Origin: Fodinibius salsisoli | Lineage (GTDB): Bacteria; Bacteroidota; Rhodothermia; Balneolales; Balneolaceae | Length of the DNA: 64,000 nucleotides | Direction: 5' to 3' | Assembly (NCBI RefSeq): GCF_026229185.1 | Contig: NZ_JAGGJA010000006.1 | Location: 1 to 64,000 of the forward strand | Shown here: piece after piece, positions 4,984 through 26,956 of the stretch | Layout of the letters: the number at the start of each line of letters is the position of its first letter | How positions within the stretch are numbered: position 1 is the stretch's first letter | Translations under genes and position numbers: made by a program | Notes under the pieces: model-generated | The model's database searches: none | What the model saw: only the letters and a program-made list of their open reading frames with translations | Told to the model about the DNA's origin: nothing

Positions 4984-5859
4984 CTATTGCAATGCATTTA
5001 AGTGTTGGGCACGAAAGCTGGAATATAACTGCTGAACCTCTTTGGTAACAGGATGATCCGTATCATACTTCTTTCCATCAACCTGATGAACGGAAAGTAC
5101 CTCCCGGACTGAATTACACATAAATATGGCCTCAGCATCATCTAATGTTCTTAGTCGATACTGACCCTCATTTAACGCCCATTGCTGCTTGTCTTCAGTA
5201 ATGGTTATAATTGCCTGGCGGGTAATGCCCGGAAGGAGATCACAAGCCTCTGAGGGTGTAAAAATTTGGTCATTCTTAATCCAAAATAGATTAGCGATCG
5301 TCGTTTCTGATACCCATCCATTCATTGTTTGCATGAGTGCATCATCTGCCCCCTTTTGGGCTGCTTCTCTTGCAGCTAAAATATAGTTTATGCCATTGGT
5401 AAACTTACCCACTGATGGTAATGCTTGTGAAGGTATCCTCCGGACATCAACCGTTGCCAATGTGGGAGGTTCGAAAAAATTCGGACATTTTGAAGCCATG
5501 ATCATATAATGCAGTGTGCCACTACCCTGAGATTGATATCCTCGCATGCCTTCTTGCCAGCACTGTATGCGTACAATAGCATCGGTGGCAAGCAGCTCTT
5601 TTTGCTGCAACAAGTCAGCTGTATTTTTTCTTAGCTCATCCAGTGAGGGTATCCCCGGAGCTGAGATGCCCAGTACGCCCAGCCCATCTCTCAAACGATT
5701 AATATGCTCTTCCAACAGTAATGTACGGCCCTGATAAACCCGAAACGTTTCAAAGACTCCTTCTCCGTACATCATGCCCCGGGAATTCGCCTTCACAATC
5801 GGCTGTTCCGCAGACTGAAGCTGCCCGTCAAATAAGATCCAGTTATTACTTTGACCCAC
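4984..5859 (-). CDS. pabC: Aminodeoxychorismate lyase (class IV PLP enzyme)
   Basis: Releases pyruvate from aminodeoxychorismate to give p-aminobenzoate. The fold is that of class IV aminotransferases: SRGMMYGEGVFET near the N-terminus, the probable PLP lysine Lys152 in GKFTNGINY, and WVSETTIANLFW with LLPGITRQ toward the C-terminus. Length (291 aa) is typical. It could be a branched-chain or D-amino acid aminotransferase by fold alone. Direct adjacency to pabB decides for PabC. Translation starts at GTG 5859, overlapping the end of the preceding thioredoxin-fold gene by 14 bases. Confidence 0.85.
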   Translation of the reverse strand: MGQSNNWILFDGQLQSAEQPIVKANSRGMMYGEGVFETFRVYQGRTLLLEEHINRLRDGLGVLGISAPGIPSLDELRKNTADLLQQKELLATDAIVRIQCWQEGMRGYQSQGSGTLHYMIMASKCPNFFEPPTLATVDVRRIPSQALPSVGKFTNGINYILAAREAAQKGADDALMQTMNGWVSETTIANLFWIKNDQIFTPSEACDLLPGITRQAIITITEDKQQWALNEGQYRLRTLDDAEAIFMCNSVREVLSVHQVDGKKYDTDHPVTKEVQQLYSSFRAQHLNALQ

Positions 5860-18345: not shown

Positions 18346-19083
18346 ATGAACAACAGGGCTATTGTTACCATATTGGTTTATATTGCTTTTTGGGGATATG
18401 GGAATATAAGTATTGCCCAAATATCTGCAGATTATAAGTCGTATACAATTCAGTCAGAAGATAATACTCTATCAGATATTGCTGAAAAGTTGGGCAGTGA
18501 AGATTTTTGGCAACCTATCTATCGTGCTAACTCTGACATTATTAGTAATAATGGTTTTATAGAAGAAGGTCAGGTATTAACTCTTCCTGCTGCGGTATTC
18601 CAATCCAAAGAGTTTATTTATCATTCATCCAATAAAGGAAACACTTCTACCAATCCAACTGACAAGGAGTCTAAAGAAAAGCAGTTAGAACAATTTAGAT
18701 CGGCCTTTAAAAGTTTAGTCAACAAAGAAAAACAAAACCAGGAGCAGTCCGAAACATCTCCTCAACAGGATCCTACCCTGGAACTGGGTGGTTTCGTTCT
18801 GGATGAAACACGAAGTAAAATGGGGCGTGATTTCTATAACCTGTTTTACCAACACTGGGAGGCCCCTCAAAATGCTTCTAACTTCACCATTACCATCTCT
18901 GAACAACCTACAATCGGAAGAGGCAGCCAAGTGACTATTAAGCTTGATTACAATCAGATTTTTAGTGCGCGCTTGCAGCCCCGATACGAATATATTGAAA
19001 CGTTAAGTAAGCAAGCTGTAGCTCGTAGTCAACAAGCTGTTCAACAACAAGCATCAGTAAAAAATCAATTAATTGGCTATTAA
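18346..19083 (+). CDS. csgE: CsgE-like curli secretion factor with N-terminal LysM domain
   Basis: Curli export accessory protein. After a signal peptide (residues 1-24, ISIAQ) comes a LysM-like peptidoglycan-binding domain at about 31-81 (YKSYTIQSEDNTLSDIAEKL, with the closing strand VLTLPA). A charged linker (100-145) leads to a CsgE domain at about 148-225: GGFVLDETRSKMGRDFY, ITISEQP and GRGSQVTI are the family landmarks. E. coli CsgE is about 130 residues with no LysM, so this 245-residue form is a fusion. In E. coli CsgE caps the periplasmic side of the CsgG pore; LysM could tether that cap to the cell wall. The stop is 10 bases before the csgF start. Confidence 0.85.
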   Translation: MNNRAIVTILVYIAFWGYGNISIAQISADYKSYTIQSEDNTLSDIAEKLGSEDFWQPIYRANSDIISNNGFIEEGQVLTLPAAVFQSKEFIYHSSNKGNTSTNPTDKESKEKQLEQFRSAFKSLVNKEKQNQEQSETSPQQDPTLELGGFVLDETRSKMGRDFYNLFYQHWEAPQNASNFTITISEQPTIGRGSQVTIKLDYNQIFSARLQPRYEYIETLSKQAVARSQQAVQQQASVKNQLIGY

Positions 19084-19093
19084 CCCTAAAATT

Positions 19094-19519
19094 ATGAAAA
19101 CATTTATATCATCCATACTTGGTTTAGCTATTACGTTATTACTCTTAGCGCCGGGTTCTGCCCAGGCACAAGATTTCGTCTATACTCCGGTAAATCCAGC
19201 CTTTGGTGGTAGCTACCTTAATTATCAGTGGCTGCTTAGTTCAGCAAATGCTCAGAACAAGTATAAGGGCGGCAGTGGCTATAGTTATAACAACGATCCC
19301 CTGGCCAATTTTGAAGAACAACTCCAACGGCAGGTTTTATCTCAGCTCACGCGTAATGTCATCCAAGATCGATTCGGAGATGTTGACTTGAGCCAACAAA
19401 ATACCTTTGAGTTTGGAGAATTTTCAATTGATATCGTCCCCGGTGCCAATGGCGTAGATATTAATATTTTCAACCAATCATCAGGCGAGCAAACAACAGT
19501 TACCGTACCCAGCATATAA
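19094..19519 (+). CDS. csgF: Curli assembly factor CsgF
   Basis: A small secreted curli factor that in E. coli links the CsgG pore to the nucleator at the cell surface. The signal peptide (residues 1-26, GSAQAQ) is followed directly by the hallmark FVYTPVNPAFGGSYLNYQW, the CsgF N-terminal segment that inserts into the CsgG channel. A central amphipathic helix (LANFEEQLQRQVLSQL) and a C-terminal strand region ending VTVPSI complete it. ATG 19094 is chosen because upstream in-frame codons would spoil the signal peptide. The csgG start follows 6 bases after the stop. Confidence 0.92.
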   Translation: MKTFISSILGLAITLLLLAPGSAQAQDFVYTPVNPAFGGSYLNYQWLLSSANAQNKYKGGSGYSYNNDPLANFEEQLQRQVLSQLTRNVIQDRFGDVDLSQQNTFEFGEFSIDIVPGANGVDINIFNQSSGEQTTVTVPSI

Positions 19520-19525
19520 TCTGAT

Positions 19526-20884
19526 ATGAAATATCTTAACCCTACATATCTTCTATTACTTGCATTACTTACCTCCTCTTGTGCTGGTAGTTTAAAGCCC
19601 TATAAGACTGAGCCAGCCCAGGTTGGGTGGGAAAGTAAATCGAACCAATCACTTAAAGAATTACCTAAGCCTAATAATAAGGTGGTAGCAGCAGTCTACC
19701 GATTTCGAGACCAAACCGGCCAATACAAACCTTCCCAACAGTCTATCAGCTACTCTACGGCCGTAACCCAGGGTGCTACCTCTATCCTGATCAAAGCCAT
19801 GGAAAATTCAGGATGGTTTACCCCTATTGAACGAGAAGGCATTTCAAACCTCCTGAACGAAAGACGCATTATCCAAAATACGCGGCAGCAAAATAATGAT
19901 AACACCAAGCTCCCTCCCCTGCTCTTTGCAGGCGTTGTACTTGAAGGAGGTATTATTGGCTATGACAGCAACGTGATGACAGGCGGAGCCGGCGTTCGTT
20001 ACCTGGGGATGAGCGCTTCTGGCCAATACCGCAAAGACCAAGTCACCATTTACCTACGGGCTGTTTCTACCCAAAGCGGTCGAATTTTGAAAACCGTGCA
20101 TACAACCAAGTCTATTTTATCTACAAAGTTAGACGGTGGTATCTTCCGTTACGTGGATGCCAATGAATTACTGGAATCTGAGGTAGGCGTCACCTTTAAC
20201 GAACCTCCGGTTATGGCTGTCACCGAAGCAATTGATGAAGCCGTTAAACGACTCATTGTTGAAGGAGTTGATGCCAACATCTGGCAACCAGCTGACCAAG
20301 AGTCCTTTAAAGAATATAAAGAAGATTATGAGCTTGCTGTAGCTAAGCAGAAGGAACGGCAGAAAAGCAATTATTATGGAATAGCAGAGCGGCCGGATTT
20401 ACGCTCAGGATTTTCAGTCAATGGCAGCTACTCTTTTGGAAGCTACATCGGCAGTTTCGGAAATGAATCACAGAATTCAGGCTTTGGCATCCAGGCTGAG
20501 CAAGCTATTGTCAACAGTCCCCTATCCATGAAGTTTAACTACCATCGGACACAGATAGGATCTCAAAATATTTTCTCTGAACCTGTGAATAACTTAGATG
20601 TATTGATAAACGCTTATTTGACTCCCAAACTTAAGCTATCACCCTATGTTGGTGTCGGTGGAGGCGTGTTGGCTTATGACAGTACACCAGAATTTACAGA
20701 AGATCAATTCTTTCCAACCCTCTCCGGAGAGGCAGGCCTGGACTATCGTTTTTCAGAAACCTTTGGCCTAAAGATAGGGCTGAGTTACCGCTATTTAATT
20801 AGTGACGGAGTTGATGGTATAAAGGCGGGCAGCATTCACGATCAACAATGGAATATCATGACAGGATTTACTTTTTACCCATAA
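19526..20884 (+). CDS. csgG: Curli export channel CsgG with additional C-terminal beta-barrel domain
   Basis: Outer-membrane lipoprotein forming the curlin secretion pore. Lipobox LTSSC (Cys19) is followed by the CsgG domain at about 45-270: VAAVYRFRDQTGQYKP, TAVTQGATSILIKAM, GWFTPIEREG and LLNERRIIQ are characteristic. The E. coli protein stops after this domain (277 aa). Here about 160 further residues (293-452) form alternating aromatic strands such as FSVNGSYSFGSY, LDVLINAYLT and GLKIGLSYRYL ending in FTFYP, the pattern of an eight-strand OmpA/OmpX-like barrel. The extension's role is unknown. Confidence 0.9.
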   Translation: MKYLNPTYLLLLALLTSSCAGSLKPYKTEPAQVGWESKSNQSLKELPKPNNKVVAAVYRFRDQTGQYKPSQQSISYSTAVTQGATSILIKAMENSGWFTPIEREGISNLLNERRIIQNTRQQNNDNTKLPPLLFAGVVLEGGIIGYDSNVMTGGAGVRYLGMSASGQYRKDQVTIYLRAVSTQSGRILKTVHTTKSILSTKLDGGIFRYVDANELLESEVGVTFNEPPVMAVTEAIDEAVKRLIVEGVDANIWQPADQESFKEYKEDYELAVAKQKERQKSNYYGIAERPDLRSGFSVNGSYSFGSYIGSFGNESQNSGFGIQAEQAIVNSPLSMKFNYHRTQIGSQNIFSEPVNNLDVLINAYLTPKLKLSPYVGVGGGVLAYDSTPEFTEDQFFPTLSGEAGLDYRFSETFGLKIGLSYRYLISDGVDGIKAGSIHDQQWNIMTGFTFYP

Positions 20885-20932
20885 TTAAAAACGAGTAATT
20901 ACATGAAACAGGAAATGTTGAACTAAGAATAT

Positions 20933-21145
20933 GGAGTAACATAGGAAAGGCAACGCCGAGGACCTTACGACCGATTAACCGGAAGTAAGGGGGAGACCCT
21001 GCGACGCTGCCTCACTAATGGCATTATAATAAAACTTAGCCATTTATTTCCTCATTACTCCTGCTATCCATCAAGAGATAGCAACACAGTGTGTTAGCAA
21101 AATGCTACGCACTATTAATTAATCATCATATAAAAAGAGGAGTAA
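20933..21145 (+). ncRNA. Structured 5' leader of curlin gene 1 (repeated cis-regulatory RNA, copy 1)
   Basis: Predicted helices by eye: outer P1 GGAGTAA (20933-20939) with TTACTCC (21055-21061); P2 AGGCA (20948-20952) with TGCCT (21008-21012); P3 CCTTAC (20963-20968) with GTAAGG (20985-20990), capped by CCG/CGG; a GGG-AGA-CCC hairpin (20991-20999); P5 AATGGC (21017-21022) with GCCATT (21039-21044); P6 GCTATC/GATAGC (21063-21082); P7 TAGCA/TGCTA (21095-21107). The ribosome-binding site GGAGTAA (21139-21145) can replace the 5' P1 strand in pairing with TTACTCC. The same layout recurs before two more curlin genes. The RNA family is not one I recognise. Confidence 0.82.
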
Positions 21146-21149
21146 TACT

Positions 21150-21977
21150 ATGAAAAGAATAGTAACCCTTACATTCGCACTGCTATTTACAGCAGGAATT
21201 ACCTTTGCACAGAACAACGCTTCTGTGGACCAAAATGGTAATGATAACCAAGCTACGGTAGAGCAAACCTATCAAAGTGGTGCCTCCAGCGCGATGAATA
21301 ATGCTACTGTTAATCAAGATGGAGACAACAACAAAGTTGAACGCTTGCAACAAGTCGGTGCCGGCAATTCGTTCGACGTAACCCAAAATGGTGATAATAA
21401 CATTGTTCAGTCGCATCCCGAACAAGGTACCAATGGAAATGCCAGTTTTGGCGGGGTAATTGATATTACTCAATCCAATAATAGTAACGAAATCTGGGAT
21501 GCTGATCAGGCCGGCCAGAACAACAAACTGTACGTCTCTCAGGATGGCGGTGATGTTGTTAACGTTGAAGCCCAGGTTTCAAGCGGTAGTGCAGGCAACC
21601 TGATCGACATTTCACAAACGGGTGGTAATAACAGCGTTGGCCTTGCAAGCTCAAATGGTGCTGGTGCTTATCAAGAAGGTGAAAACAACGCCATGAATAT
21701 TAACCAAAGTGGTGGCGCTTCGGCCGGTGTAACAGATCATATGCCTTCAAGCAGCTACGATAATACATTCTTCCGTTCTGGTGAAGGCGGACAAGGACTT
21801 ATCCAGCTGGGCGAAGATAACACCATGACTCTTGATCAGACAGGTGCAAGCACCATCGGATATGTATTGCAGGATGGTCTTAATAATACTGCTACTATCA
21901 CCCAAAATGGTAATGGCCATACTGCTACTACATCACAGGTAGGTTCCAATAATTCCTCTACCATTATTCAAAATTAG
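21150..21977 (+). CDS. Curlin-repeat amyloid subunit 1 (CsgA-like)
   Basis: A secreted fibre subunit. A signal peptide (residues 1-20, ITFAQ) precedes about eleven curlin-type repeats built on Q-x-G-x-x-N with alternating Gln/Asn and small residues, for example QNGNDNQATVEQ, QVGAGNSFDVTQNGDNN and QNGNGHTATTSQVG. Composition is very rich in G, N, Q, S and T and nearly free of lysine, as in curli amyloids. It ends in SSTIIQN, a terminus shared by the other two large curlins. Its own intrinsic terminator follows. The paralogue acting as the major subunit cannot be decided from sequence. Confidence 0.88.
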   Translation: MKRIVTLTFALLFTAGITFAQNNASVDQNGNDNQATVEQTYQSGASSAMNNATVNQDGDNNKVERLQQVGAGNSFDVTQNGDNNIVQSHPEQGTNGNASFGGVIDITQSNNSNEIWDADQAGQNNKLYVSQDGGDVVNVEAQVSSGSAGNLIDISQTGGNNSVGLASSNGAGAYQEGENNAMNINQSGGASAGVTDHMPSSSYDNTFFRSGEGGQGLIQLGEDNTMTLDQTGASTIGYVLQDGLNNTATITQNGNGHTATTSQVGSNNSSTIIQN

Positions 21978-21985
21978 GTTTAATT

Positions 21986-22018
21986 GAAAGCATTCCTTGA
22001 CGGGAATGCTTTCTTTTC
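21986..22018 (+). terminator. Intrinsic terminator after curlin gene 1
   Basis: GAAAGCATTCC (21986-21996) pairs with GGAATGCTTTC (22003-22013) around a short loop and is followed by TTTTCT. It lies 9 bases after the stop. This makes curlin 1 a self-contained unit and implies a new promoter before the next leader. Confidence 0.85.
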
Positions 22019-22047
22019 TGATGCATCGTTCTTTGAACTAAAAGTAT

Positions 22048-22261
22048 GGAGTAAAATAAGAAAGGCAACGCCGAGGACCTTACAACCGGTTACCCGGAAG
22101 TAAGGGGGAGACCCTACGACGCTGCCTTAGTGATGGTAATATAACAAAAAAATTACCATCTAATCACTTACTCCTGAATAGCTGTCTCATTGGGATAGCG
22201 ACCAACATAATGGCAAAATGCCGTTAACACTAAAAACAAACACATATAACCATAGGAGTAA
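22048..22261 (+). ncRNA. Structured 5' leader of curlin gene 2 (repeated cis-regulatory RNA, copy 2)
   Basis: Same plan as copy 1. P1: GGAGTAA (22048-22054) with TTACTCC (22168-22174). P2: AAGGCA (22062-22067) with TGCCTT (22123-22128), one pair longer than copy 1 through a matching change on both sides. P3: CCTTAC/GTAAGG (22078-22083, 22100-22105), capped by CCGG/CCGG. P5: ATGGTAAT (22133-22140) with ATTACCAT (22152-22159), a compensatory change from AATGGC/GCCATT. P6: GCTGTC/GATAGC (22181-22199). P7: TAATGGCA/TGCCGTTA (22208-22226). The ribosome-binding site GGAGTAA is at 22255-22261, five bases before ATG. Confidence 0.82.
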
Positions 22262-22265
22262 TACT

Positions 22266-23180
22266 ATGAAAAAGCTAATAACCCTTACATTTGCATTCAT
22301 GCTTTCTGTTAGCGTAGCAGCTGCACAAAGCAACACAGCTACCAGCTCTTCCACTGGTGACTATAATACCTCAACAATTGAGCAGGACGGTTCTTCCAAC
22401 ACTGCCGAAGTTACACAAAATGGTAATAGCAACGAAGCTTCTATTAGCCAGGGTATTCAAGGCATAACTTCAAATAACGATGAAGCTACCGTTAATCAGG
22501 TGGGTGACAACAACAGCGCTGACCTGAACTCTCGTGACGGTTGGGGCGGATCTTCAAATGCTGTTATTTATAATGTAGATCAACAGGGAGATAATAACTC
22601 TGTGAGAGCACGAGCATTCAATGCTCCGGCCGAAGGTACCATCCATCAGGCAGGCTCATATAACTCTGCTGACCTGACACAGGCTAACAGCCAACGAGCA
22701 ACAGCTATCCTTACCCAGGCTGGAGAAGGAAACTCCGCTGACATCGACCAGATGAGTGGTGCTCATGACGCCCATCTCGAAGCTAACTTTGCGGGCGACT
22801 ACAACTCAATGGACGTGACTCAAAATAGCACATGGCAAAAATTCATCTTGGATGTATCTGGTTCTTCTAACACTATTACCGGTACACAGGGCGAGCATGA
22901 TGCTGACCAGTTTACTGCTATCTCTGGAGATAACAACAGCCTTGACTTCTACCAAGCAAAGTCTTCTGATGCCGGCATCTCCGTTGCAGGAGATAACAAC
23001 ACCATCTCTCTGATGCAGAATGGAGAAGGTAACAGCGTATTTGCTACCAATCCATGGGACAAAGATGGTATCGTTGTTAACGGTTCCTATAACGCTGTTG
23101 ATGTTACACAAAACAGTAATAACAATACTGCTGTCGTTAATATTTCAGGAGCCGGAAATTCAAGCACCATTATTCAATAA
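22266..23180 (+). CDS. Curlin-repeat amyloid subunit 2 (CsgA-like)
   Basis: 304 residues from ATG 22266, chosen because GGAGTAA sits just upstream and a signal peptide (ending VAAAQ) follows directly. The in-frame codons before it lie in the structured leader. Repeats carry Q-x-G-x-x-N cores: QDGSSNTAEVTQNGNSN, QVGDNNSADLNS, QAGEGNSADIDQ and SGDNNSLDFYQ. Spacing is less regular in the middle, with Trp- and Pro-containing inserts (GWGGSSNAV, NPWDKDG). It ends NSSTIIQ. Probably an alternative or co-assembling fibre subunit. The start of the gene is highly similar to curlins 1 and 3, indicating duplication. Confidence 0.87.
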   Translation: MKKLITLTFAFMLSVSVAAAQSNTATSSSTGDYNTSTIEQDGSSNTAEVTQNGNSNEASISQGIQGITSNNDEATVNQVGDNNSADLNSRDGWGGSSNAVIYNVDQQGDNNSVRARAFNAPAEGTIHQAGSYNSADLTQANSQRATAILTQAGEGNSADIDQMSGAHDAHLEANFAGDYNSMDVTQNSTWQKFILDVSGSSNTITGTQGEHDADQFTAISGDNNSLDFYQAKSSDAGISVAGDNNTISLMQNGEGNSVFATNPWDKDGIVVNGSYNAVDVTQNSNNNTAVVNISGAGNSSTIIQ

Positions 23181-23192
23181 TACTTTTCGGGG

Positions 23193-23222
23193 GCATCTCT
23201 TGATCGGGATGCTTTCCTTTTT
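23193..23222 (+). terminator. Probable intrinsic terminator after curlin gene 2
   Basis: GCATC (23193-23197) and GATGC (23208-23212) with a GATCGG loop, then TTTCCTTTTT. The stem is shorter than those after curlins 1 and 3. Its position, loop sequence and T-rich tail are the same. Confidence 0.6.
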
Positions 23223-23251
23223 GAACAATCGATCTTTGAAGTAAAGACTAT

Positions 23252-23461
23252 GGGGTAAAAGGCAACGCCGAGGATTCTTATGACCGGTCACCCGGATGTA
23301 AGAGGGAGACCCTGCGCGGCTGCCTGAGATAAGTAATGGCATAAAGTAATGCCAATGAGACATTTACTCCAAAGCTATCTCTCCGAGATAGCATAACATA
23401 CAAAGCCAAATTGGCAACATAGCCATTGGCGTTTAATCAATCATTAATTAAAACGGAGTAA
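23252..23461 (+). ncRNA. Structured 5' leader of curlin gene 3 (repeated cis-regulatory RNA, copy 3)
   Basis: P1: GGGGTAAA (23252-23259) with TTTACTCC (23363-23370), including a G-U pair where the other copies have A-U. P2: AGGCA (23260-23264) with TGCCT (23321-23325). P3: TCTTAT (23276-23281) with GTAAGA (23298-23303), changed on both strands relative to copies 1 and 2. The CCGG/CCGG cap and GGGAGACCC hairpin are retained. P5: TGGCAT/ATGCCA (23337-23354). P6: GCTATCTC/GAGATAGC (23374-23392). P7: GCC/GGC around AAATT (23405-23415). The ribosome-binding site GGAGTAA (23455-23461) is a perfect match to the TTACTCC strand. Confidence 0.82.
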
Positions 23462-23463
23462 TC

Positions 23464-24597
23464 ATGAAAAAGTTAGGATTAACACTTCTCATAGCGCTGT
23501 TTGTTGTTAGCCTTGGTAAGGCACAACAAAATACAGCAACTACGAACCAAATAGGTAATGACAGCGATGCTGCTATTACTCAATCTGGTAGCGAAAACGA
23601 TGCAAGCATCAACCAAAATTCATCATTCGGTTCCGGCCATACAGCTGAAGTCACACAAAATGGTTCTGAGAACCTCAGCGAGGTTGAACAAAATCAAGCT
23701 AATTCCGAGGCTTATGTCTCGCAAACGGGTTCTCAAAACGAGAGCTATTCGAAGCAGGCTGGGTTCAACATACTCAATGTTACACAAGACGGTAACGGCA
23801 ATGTGTTGAGCGGATATGGTTCAAGAAGCCAGGTTTATCAAAAAAATGGTACCGGTATATTTAGTTCCGACATGAATGAACTGACCGTTGACCAGCTTGG
23901 AGATAATAACGAGGCCGGAGTTTGGCAGGAACACCATGCCAGCGCCAACATTTCGCAGACTGGAGTTGGCAATAATGGGCAGGTCTTCCAAACGGGAACG
24001 CCGAATGCCGGAGCCATGAACGAAGCGACAATCACTCAAAATGGTGACGACAACAGTGCCGATATCAATCAACGGGGTGACGGCAATGGTGCCCTCGTTG
24101 AGCAAGGCGTTTATGGCGGAGCAACTGGGAACGAGGTTGATTTCGACCAAATTGGTGACGGAAACTATCTGGAAACCAAGCAGGTAGCCGCTAATGATAA
24201 CCAGGTTACTGGCAGTCAGACAGGTAATGATAACTATTTCCGTGCTTCTGTTAAGGGCGATGGTAATACGGTTGATGCCTCTTCTGATGGAAATGAAAAC
24301 CGAGGCAGCTGGGATTTAAGCTCAGACTGGCCCGCATTTTCTGATGGGAACATGCTTGGCATTACTCAATCTGGTAATGGCAACGAAAATACCGGTAAGA
24401 TTTCAGGAGATAATAACACCATTGACATAATGCAAGATGGTAACAACAACTCCATTGGATCTGACTGGTATACCGAAGATGGCGTTATTATTTCTGGTAA
24501 TAATAACGATGTATCAATTGCCCAAACCGGAAATGCTAATATGGCAACTTCCATAGTTAATGGCGCAGGCAATACCTCTACTATAATCCAAAATTAA
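23464..24597 (+). CDS. Curlin-repeat amyloid subunit 3 (CsgA-like)
   Basis: The largest of the curlins here (377 aa). A signal peptide ending LGKAQ is followed by some fifteen repeats of the Q-x-G-x-x-N type: QIGNDSDAAITQSGSEND, QNGSENLSEVEQ, QNGDDNSADINQRGDGN, QTGNDNYF. The C-terminal half has longer spacer segments with Trp and Asp (NRGSWDLSSDW, SDWYTEDG). It ends NTSTIIQN. It is expected to be exported through CsgG and to polymerise as amyloid. A strong terminator follows 11 bases after the stop. Confidence 0.88.
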   Translation: MKKLGLTLLIALFVVSLGKAQQNTATTNQIGNDSDAAITQSGSENDASINQNSSFGSGHTAEVTQNGSENLSEVEQNQANSEAYVSQTGSQNESYSKQAGFNILNVTQDGNGNVLSGYGSRSQVYQKNGTGIFSSDMNELTVDQLGDNNEAGVWQEHHASANISQTGVGNNGQVFQTGTPNAGAMNEATITQNGDDNSADINQRGDGNGALVEQGVYGGATGNEVDFDQIGDGNYLETKQVAANDNQVTGSQTGNDNYFRASVKGDGNTVDASSDGNENRGSWDLSSDWPAFSDGNMLGITQSGNGNENTGKISGDNNTIDIMQDGNNNSIGSDWYTEDGVIISGNNNDVSIAQTGNANMATSIVNGAGNTSTIIQN

Positions 24598-25963: not shown

Positions 25964-26956
25964 ATGCCGCATAACGGATTTACATCTCGCACATACTTAA
26001 TATGGACAGGCCTTGCCATGATAGCCTTGCTATTTGCTATTATTGGCTACCGCTATTCAGAGATACATTCCCTGGAAATAAGAGAATCGGGTACCTCCTC
26101 CCCTGATATGGATACCTCCGTTGAAAAAGAACTTGAGCTTCCTCAAGCTGATTCTGGGACATCATTATTTTCCAACTTGGATGTTATTCCGCTAAAGCAA
26201 ATAAATAACTTCCAGATTACGGTAATGCCGCTTGTTCATGATAGTCCAGAATTTTCCATTATACTACCAGATCGTGACAGGAATACGGCCCCAGCAACAT
26301 CCCCTAATCATTTTATAAAAGATAAGATCAAAATCAGCTCCAAAAGTAAGATTTTGACACCTGATAATACTACCCAAAAGCACCCAACAGGCTCTTCCCC
26401 ATCAAGGACTATTTCGGTCAACCACAGCTTCTCAGAAAATATGGATTTGGGCAAAAAGTCTCTTCCCAAATATCACCTCTCACTGGCCTCTTATATCTCA
26501 AAAAACAAGCAACCAATTATACGATCTAGCAGTATAAATCAAGTAGGCATTAAAAATGTAACTGCTATTATACAGAGTAGGAATGACATCGGTTATGCTT
26601 CTGTCGAACAGATTGGCTCACATAATCATAGTCTTACTGAGCAGTACTCAACAGCGGACCTAAGCCAAAATATTGCTCGAATTGAACAAGAAGGAGCTCA
26701 TAATTTGGGCCTGCAAAAACAATATCAAATGGATAACTTACATTCTAACAACACTATTTTACAGCAGACTGGAATGTTCAATATCTCCAGCCAGCAACAA
26801 CATGGAGTTGGGAATACGAACACCAGCCATGTCGTTCAGCAGGGAACTCACAATTTTGCGCAAACTTCACAATCTGGGATGTTCGGCACAATGCAATCAA
26901 CAATTAAGCAACAAGGGTCAAGCAACCACACTTCTATTTCACAGCAAGACTTTTAA
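25964..26956 (+). CDS. Membrane-anchored protein with C-terminal curlin-like repeats
   Basis: 330 residues. One hydrophobic segment at about 11-28 (LIWTGLAMIALLFAIIGY) has no signal-peptidase site, so it reads as an N-terminal anchor. Residues 35-185 are a low-complexity, Ser/Thr/Pro/Lys-rich linker. Residues 190-330 hold Q-x-G-x-x-N repeats: NQVGIKNVTAIIQ, EQIGSHNHSLTEQ, QQTGMFNISSQQQHG and QQGSSNHTSISQQ. These are more Gln/His-rich than the true curlins. An anchored curlin-like protein could template fibres or retain subunits. The function is inferred from repeats and position only. Confidence 0.7.
   Translation: MPHNGFTSRTYLIWTGLAMIALLFAIIGYRYSEIHSLEIRESGTSSPDMDTSVEKELELPQADSGTSLFSNLDVIPLKQINNFQITVMPLVHDSPEFSIILPDRDRNTAPATSPNHFIKDKIKISSKSKILTPDNTTQKHPTGSSPSRTISVNHSFSENMDLGKKSLPKYHLSLASYISKNKQPIIRSSSINQVGIKNVTAIIQSRNDIGYASVEQIGSHNHSLTEQYSTADLSQNIARIEQEGAHNLGLQKQYQMDNLHSNNTILQQTGMFNISSQQQHGVGNTNTSHVVQQGTHNFAQTSQSGMFGTMQSTIKQQGSSNHTSISQQDF

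Follow-up and report, generated by a model that had tools for sequence, protein, structure and literature searches.

Structured leader RNAs before the curlin genes of Fodinibius salsisoli and its relatives: a candidate translational ON switch

The 64 kb window analyzed here (Fodinibius salsisoli assembly GCF_026229185.1, contig NZ_JAGGJA010000006.1, positions 1 to 64,000) contains a curli locus in which each of curlins 1–3 is preceded by its own copy of a long, structured leader. We propose, with a probability of roughly 0.72, that this leader RNA acts in cis as a translational ON switch for curlin. In the proposed mechanism, an outer helix, P1, would close a conserved core (helix P2 with a C-A mismatch, the purine-rich junction J2/3, and helices P3 and P4) plus a variable hairpin, P5. 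Folding predictions suggest that the Shine-Dalgarno sequence is more exposed when P1 is closed and becomes covered, mostly by the P1 3' strand, once the 5' strand of P1 cannot pair; a cellular signal that stabilizes the core would keep P1 closed and allow curlin to be translated. The most informative part of this analysis, absent from an earlier sequence-only reading of the same DNA, is the predicted competition of P1 and the Shine-Dalgarno sequence for one strand.

Three structured leaders in the curli locus

The window holds csgE, csgF and csgG (Pfam: CsgE 1.7e-21, CsgF 2.4e-38, CsgG 3.6e-65) followed by four open reading frames (ORFs) with Curlin_rpt matches, the Pfam composition of a curli (type VIII secretion) locus. 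Helix location and alignment place the core (P2, J2/3, P3 and the stretch read as hairpin P4) and P5 within a putative P1 in the leaders, as follows.

20933–20939, + strand: copy 1, P1 5' strand GGAGTAA, resembling a ribosome-binding site (base-by-base helix location, fold)
20947–21012, + strand: copy 1, conserved core P2-J2/3-P3-P4 (helix location, alignment)
20947–20958/21002–21012, + strand: copy 1, P2, within the core
20963–20968/20985–20990, + strand: copy 1, P3, within the core, with J2/3 reading AGGA
20991–20999, + strand: copy 1, P4 GGG-AGA-CCC, within the core
21017–21044, + strand: copy 1, variable hairpin P5, AATGGC/GCCATT (fold, helix location)
21055–21061, + strand: copy 1, P1 3' strand TTACTCC, also the putative anti-Shine-Dalgarno (complementarity, blocking and swap tests)
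21063–21107, + strand: copy 1, spacer hairpins H6 (GCTATC/GATAGC) and H7 (TAGCA/TGCTA) (fold, helix location)
21139–21149, + strand: copy 1, Shine-Dalgarno GGAGTAAT and spacer, with ATG at 21150 (sequence)
21150–21977, + strand: curlin 1 (Curlin_rpt PF07012; Pfam)
22048–22054, + strand: copy 2, P1 5' strand GGAGTAA (fold, helix location)
22062–22128, + strand: copy 2, conserved core P2-P3-P4 (alignment, helix location)
22132–22160, + strand: copy 2, variable hairpin P5 (fold, helix location)
22168–22174, + strand: copy 2, P1 3' strand and putative anti-Shine-Dalgarno TTACTCC (complementarity, blocking test)
22181–22226, + strand: copy 2, spacer hairpins H6 and H7 (fold, helix location)
22255–22265, + strand: copy 2, Shine-Dalgarno GGAGTAAT and spacer, with ATG at 22266 (sequence)
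22266–23180, + strand: curlin 2 (PF07012; Pfam)
23252–23258, + strand: copy 3, P1 5' strand GGGGTAA (fold, helix location)
23260–23325, + strand: copy 3, conserved core P2-P3-P4 (alignment, helix location)
23337–23354, + strand: copy 3, variable hairpin P5 (fold, helix location)
23363–23370, + strand: copy 3, P1 3' strand and putative anti-Shine-Dalgarno TTTACTCC (complementarity, blocking test)
23374–23430, + strand: copy 3, spacer hairpins H6 and H7 and a short third stem (fold, helix location)
23455–23463, + strand: copy 3, Shine-Dalgarno GGAGTAAT, with ATG at 23464 (helix location)
23464–24597, + strand: curlin 3 (PF07012; Pfam)

The start of curlin 2 was set at 22266 rather than at the longer ORF start, 22218, because a Shine-Dalgarno sequence precedes 22266.

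The sequence-only reading had described structured leaders with shared cores before curlins 1–3, and this description was confirmed. All three leaders contain the shared core GGCAACGCCGAGGA without a change, and it has no zero-mismatch occurrence elsewhere in the 4.85 Mb assembly (98% complete); GGGAGACCCT is likewise exact in all three. Fold z-scores of copies 1–3 were −4.83, −5.69 and −3.94, and each copy outperformed all 200 of its dinucleotide shuffles. The leader lengths given earlier, 213, 214 and 210 nt, need correction: counted from the start of P1 up to the last base ahead of ATG, the leaders measure 217 (20933–21149), 218 (22048–22265) and 212 nt (23252–23463). Likewise, the claim of at least five helices with two-sided base changes was generous for three copies, since pairing is kept and two-sided change is confined to one P3 pair (C-G to U-A). 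A second P3 pair changes on one side (C-G to U-G), as does P1 (A-U to G-U), and P5, H6 and H7 stay paired with bases that are not alignable one to one. As judged from the alignments, firm covariation derives from relatives, not from the three copies alone.

The earlier failure to match a named riboswitch was reproduced with Rfam 15, which gave no gathering-score match in the window or in the loci of 13 relatives. A permissive Rfam scan of the window returned nothing on the leaders, and a tRNA/tmRNA search of the window found none. For the core of one relative (L073), a permissive scan reported RT-6 RNA (17.4 bits, E 0.16), whose gathering score is 46.7.

Competition between P1 and the Shine-Dalgarno sequence

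The P1 5' strand of the window leaders, GGAGTAA, has TTACTCC as its partner, and TTACTCC is also complementary to GGAGTAAT just before the start codon. Related genomes, designated here by G numbers (and their loci by L numbers), show corresponding relations with other bases: TAGGAGC pairs with GCTCCTA in G003, where the GCTCCTA strand is also complementary to CATAGGGG; G024 has a divergent Shine-Dalgarno sequence, AAGGTGC, matching GCACCTT in P1; and in G017 the 13-base CTTTGTTTGTATG next to P1 is complementary to CATACAAACGGAG. By this comparison, complementarity between P1 and the Shine-Dalgarno region persists while the bases change. We infer that it would regulate translation, with the signal acting on the core.

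The P1 5' strand can also be read as a minimal ORF, ATG-GAG-TAA (20931–20939 and 22046–22054), or ATG-GGG-TAA in copy 3 (23250–23258). By eye, such an ORF is present in G009 and in the second G024 copy as well, and not in the other leaders compared.

The effect of blocking the P1 5' strand was predicted for 22 leaders, the blocking and duplex tests omitting G104b (contig end) and G124 (no curlin start found). Predicted Shine-Dalgarno accessibility decreased in 21 of the 22, by at least 0.2 in 17, and its mean fell from 0.55 to 0.18, compared with 0.54 when equal stretches elsewhere were blocked. In the three window copies the blocked value was at most 0.01, and the centroid fold of copy 3 already has the Shine-Dalgarno sequence sequestered. 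By our reading of the predicted partners, the strand that covers the Shine-Dalgarno sequence on blocking is the P1 3' strand in 16 of 22 leaders. A swap control covered 21 leaders (G074 was also omitted, and G024a was represented by the core of its second copy only): in the blocked state, accessibility was 0.17 for a leader's own Shine-Dalgarno region versus 0.36 for regions from other clades (p 0.0002, the leaders being non-independent and Wilcoxon p values therefore flattering). Mutually exclusive pairing, the hallmark of an expression platform, is thus found here by computation only.

Besides this non-independence, several predictions fit such competition poorly. A leader's own drop exceeded the swapped drop in just 16 of 21 cases, and duplex energies show the anti-Shine-Dalgarno effect weakly (own −11.4, swapped −9.5, standard deviation 2.9 kcal/mol). 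Blocking P1 changed accessibility little in G017 (0.26 to 0.23), and G074, which has two copies, was the exception in which blocking the first copy did not reduce accessibility. Another blocked stretch was equally effective in G096, G017, G059, G074 and G115, and the covering strand was not P1 in G098, G096, G017, G077, G024b and G115.

Distribution among relatives and association with curlin genes

A covariance model built from the three window cores (R1) was searched in 195 relatives. Strong matches fell only in the model's own genome, with nine weak matches elsewhere; once PF07012 was mapped, two of the nine (G098, G009) proved to sit directly before curlin ORFs, and the other seven were taken as chance, their gene context not having been checked singly. 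For two curlin-like loci from a protein scan, no match was listed in one R1 search. Curlin regions fetched from 12 relatives contained further weak R1 matches before curlins. Alignment A3 comprises 12 cores from ten genomes: three rows are the window copies and nine come from curlin-holding regions, with R1 scores down to 12.4 bits and one row (L068) switched to the opposite strand by eye.

The model built from A3 (R2) was searched in 394 genomes of the phylum, 128 of the order and 244 of the class, with stricter filters under which weak matches may be lost. Within the order, R2 identified 24 sites in 20 of 128 genomes, spanning 10 genera (E ≤ 0.05), and 17 of these carriers have a single match. 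Elsewhere in the class (244 genomes) there was only one weak, unchecked match (G516, E 0.036). Four weak matches outside the order (L081–L084, from three genomes of the phylum sample; E 0.06–0.29) lie inside or opposite long open frames and were judged chance, and a home-made descriptor scan for relatives was too noisy and was dropped. G024 carries a second leader copy in tandem before one curlin gene (21 bits), and in G074 a second, degenerate tandem copy before one curlin gene was seen by eye only; the two loci are L092 and L093.

PF07012 was detected (E ≤ 1e-5) in 26 of the 128 order genomes, and all 20 RNA carriers are among them. For the genomes behind A3 this link follows in part from how they were chosen; the blind test comprises the ten carriers outside R2 training (G011, G006, G024, G059, G038, G074, G077, G030, G124 and G115), all of which are curlin-positive. 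With 16 curlin genomes left among 118, the probability that ten blind carriers would all be curlin-positive by chance is 8e-11. Judged by repeats, start and PF07012 places, 22 of the 24 sites stand directly before a curlin ORF. One of the others (G104:C95) lies behind csgG (Pfam 1.2e-66) on a contig that ends 104 nt past the core; the other (G124:C417) is the weakest site (27.5 bits), where no curlin start could be recognised in the sequence inspected and the upstream ORF has no Pfam match.

The association is not complete, which counts against the switch reading: six of the 26 curlin-positive genomes have no detected RNA copy. A filter-free search of the fetched curlin loci of these six found nothing above 10.5 bits, and re-searching fetched curlin loci without an R2 match in the same way found nothing above 13.1 bits. 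In one of the six, G097, the gap between csgG and curlin is only about 85 nt; in the others, a csgG-proximal leader may lie outside the fetched stretches.

Conserved core and covariation

A hand alignment of 25 cores and a separate alignment fitted to the model (A4) were analysed. In the hand alignment, where P3 was picked so as to pair, each of the six pairs of P3 persists in 20–25 of 25 sequences. Within P2, 24 of 25 sequences retain pair C8-G33; pair 9-32 is G-C in 19 and A-U in 5, pair 11-30 is C-G in 11 and U-A in 10, and pair 12-29 is G-C in 15 and A-U in 7. C10-A31 is a mismatch in 17 of the 25. The core consensus GGCAACGCYG-RGGA is kept across genera. For P4, a pairing of J2/3 GGA with CC behind P4 (used in R2) and a GGN/NCC hairpin both fit; by eye, the exchange of GGU/ACC for GGA/UCC favours the hairpin.

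Double compensatory changes were counted against a tree-based null that preserves the substitutions per branch; the C-A mismatch pair was excluded. P2 and P3 together had 11.8 double changes versus 1.5 ± 1.1 (null maximum 5 in 400 runs), P3 alone 6.8 versus 0.5 (maximum 3) and P2 alone 5.0 versus 0.9 (maximum 5). Compensatory changes of the kind that the sequence-only reading described are present in homologues, at about 12 in these two helices and above the null. On the model-fitted A4, the covariation score was 0.382, versus 0.223 ± 0.015 for shuffled alignments and at most 0.239 when the structure was slid.

Other measures are less favourable, and the two choices just noted, fitting A4 to the model and picking P3 to pair, tell against the result as well. 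Only 1 of 18 pairs is significant singly (E < 0.05, R-scape-like test), the measure of further pair types falls below the shuffles, the count of pairs with two-sided change did not reach significance when first aligned (64/500), and unconstrained RNAalifold on A4 yields P3 only. P2 is looser in its outer and middle pairs, at 13–22 of 25 (several at 13–19), and the unpaired positions vary more than those of many riboswitch aptamers do. A conserved, covarying core, as expected of riboswitches in general, is nonetheless found in 10 genera, with modest single-pair support. Taken together, the alignments support a conserved structured RNA with compensatory changes and no gathering-score match in Rfam 15. 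Two outcomes that the sequence-only reading would have accepted as refutation, a lack of covariation in homologues (checked by an R-scape-like script, not R-scape itself) and a match to a named Rfam family, did not occur.

Candidate signals and alternative explanations

If the leader is a translational switch, a small molecule, to which we would give even odds as the trigger, seems somewhat likelier than a protein or small RNA, a serious candidate at lower odds, or than temperature, which seems improbable. A more specific proposal is that the leaders form a new riboswitch class which responds to something other than c-di-GMP, turns on translation of functional-amyloid subunits and replaces control where GGDEF is undetectable; we advance it tentatively, at somewhat less than even odds, with c-di-AMP as one candidate ligand.

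The leader could instead be bound by a protein or small RNA, as in feedback by a curli component or through an RNA-binding protein, at the core or the ribosome-binding site, the fold being a landing platform and not an aptamer. We consider this less likely than not, but it is the alternative that fares best. It gains in probability because the P4 loop in one group of relatives repeats the start-site element GACCAACC, which occurs both in that loop and at curlin starts (GGTGACCAACC then ATG or GTG) in L073, L091, L068, L077, L080, L072, L099, L108, L120 and L124. The 11-mer was found at 47 places in 16 genomes, versus 17 for a backwards control; among the 30 of 47 contexts inspected, five are directly at a start codon, all five of curlin genes, and most of the others are inside long open frames. 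In addition, G096 has a terminator-like hairpin carrying the antisense of the curlin start element. However, GACCAACC is absent from the window copies and from the P4 loops of the seven other carriers in the genus.

Antisense sequence was noted at two loci. In L070 (about 5045–5105), a terminator-like hairpin after a curlin gene has the loop GGTTGGTCACCTTTTT, an exact antisense of the curlin start element, and the P4 loop of G074 (L093 core) carries the near-antisense TTTGGTCACC.

The leader might also be an RNA thermometer, or be structured but constitutive, so that melting or folding sets curlin translation with no bound partner. This would share the competition of P1 with the Shine-Dalgarno sequence, and the cost of opening P1 varies between leaders. 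A thermometer would not seem to require a core kept across genera as GGCAACGCYG-RGGA is, and we regard this explanation as improbable.

A variant c-di-GMP riboswitch is the explanation towards which the sequence-only reading leaned, and some precedent exists: PMC9481103 reports tandem glycine/c-di-GMP-I riboswitches linked with curlin-related genes, including csgG. The leaders described here likewise are structured RNAs before curli genes, but those riboswitches belong to other RNA families, whereas here no Rfam match was obtained and GGDEF was undetected. The GGDEF search covered 35 genomes, including all 20 carriers, and found the domain in none at E ≤ 1e-8 and in none above the family cut-off, versus 8 of 14 control genomes. 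The c-di-GMP-I model (RF01051) matched in 2 of 128 order genomes, neither with a curlin ORF in the 2.9–3.1 kb seen; these genomes are 74–88% complete, and the matches look foreign by eye. c-di-GMP-II gave no gathering-score match in the Rfam scans of the window and of 13 relatives' loci (whole genomes were not searched). c-di-GMP is therefore very unlikely as the ligand.

The same kind of search found a c-di-AMP synthase domain in 34 of the 35 genomes, the exception being an 80% complete genome; c-di-AMP is not singled out, because carriers and non-carriers both have the domain. Six of the 20 carriers (G000:C3:40984-41337, G003, G006, G009, G011, G030) have a further c-di-AMP synthase domain, located in open frames of 378–549 aa, whereas the nine curlin-negative genomes searched have none; G047, which is curlin-positive and RNA-negative, also has two.

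Functionless similarity between recent duplicates of non-coding DNA, which the 88% identity of copies 1 and 2 over 117 nt might suggest, is hardly credible given the same fold with compensated bases in other genera and families and the 22 of 24 sites directly before curlin.

Neighbouring features

Other features of the locus are as follows.

18346–20884, + strand: csgE, csgF and csgG (curli secretion), immediately 5' of the leaders (Pfam)
21986–22013, + strand: terminator-like hairpin 3' of curlin 1 (hairpin scan; weak alone)
23189–23216, + strand: terminator-like hairpin 3' of curlin 2 (hairpin scan; weak alone)

The scan found five terminator-like hairpins in the region versus 3.9 ± 1.9 expected, which is weak evidence alone. 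CsgE (18346–19083) has an N-terminal LysM-like stretch at 20.1 bits, just below the 20.9 cut-off, and CsgG (19526–20884) has a C-terminal outer-membrane beta-barrel domain. The protein at 25964–26956 has an N-terminal hydrophobic segment and, by eye, curlin-like repeats, with no Pfam match.

Relation to known systems

In translational ON riboswitches, such as the add adenine riboswitch, the closing helix P1 competes with anti-Shine-Dalgarno pairing. The curlin leaders resemble these in that an aptamer-like core would be closed by P1 and an alternative pairing would hide or free the Shine-Dalgarno sequence; unlike the add riboswitch, they match no Rfam family and precede an amyloid structural gene rather than a metabolic one. 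The leader is undescribed among the literature matches listed (open-licence PMC papers), and Rfam 15 likewise gives no gathering-score match to it. We regard it as a new RNA family within a known kind, the cis-acting translational switches.

RNA control of curli has precedent, through other RNAs, in the tandem riboswitches that PMC9481103 reports at curlin-related genes; the words Rhodothermus, Bacteroidetes, Salinibacter and Balneola are absent from that text. According to PMC3521004, Bacteroidetes genera lack csgC and csgD, except for a csgD homolog in Spirosoma; that paper leaves curli regulation open and supposes an alternative regulation, and the terms "riboswitch" and "untranslated" do not occur in it. 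The window resembles the Bacteroidetes curli systems described there in having csgE, csgF, csgG and curlins. Control by CsgD and c-di-GMP as in E. coli is unlikely to apply as such, because CsgD is reported missing in Bacteroidetes other than Spirosoma (PMC3521004) and GGDEF is undetected in the carriers.

The leader is a candidate orphan riboswitch for which an expression platform is predicted. Kept ahead of the first curlin gene in about 20 species and tripled in F. salsisoli, it is a concrete candidate, open to testing, for the so far missing control of a functional amyloid, and it may be the means by which these bacteria control the production of curli fibres.

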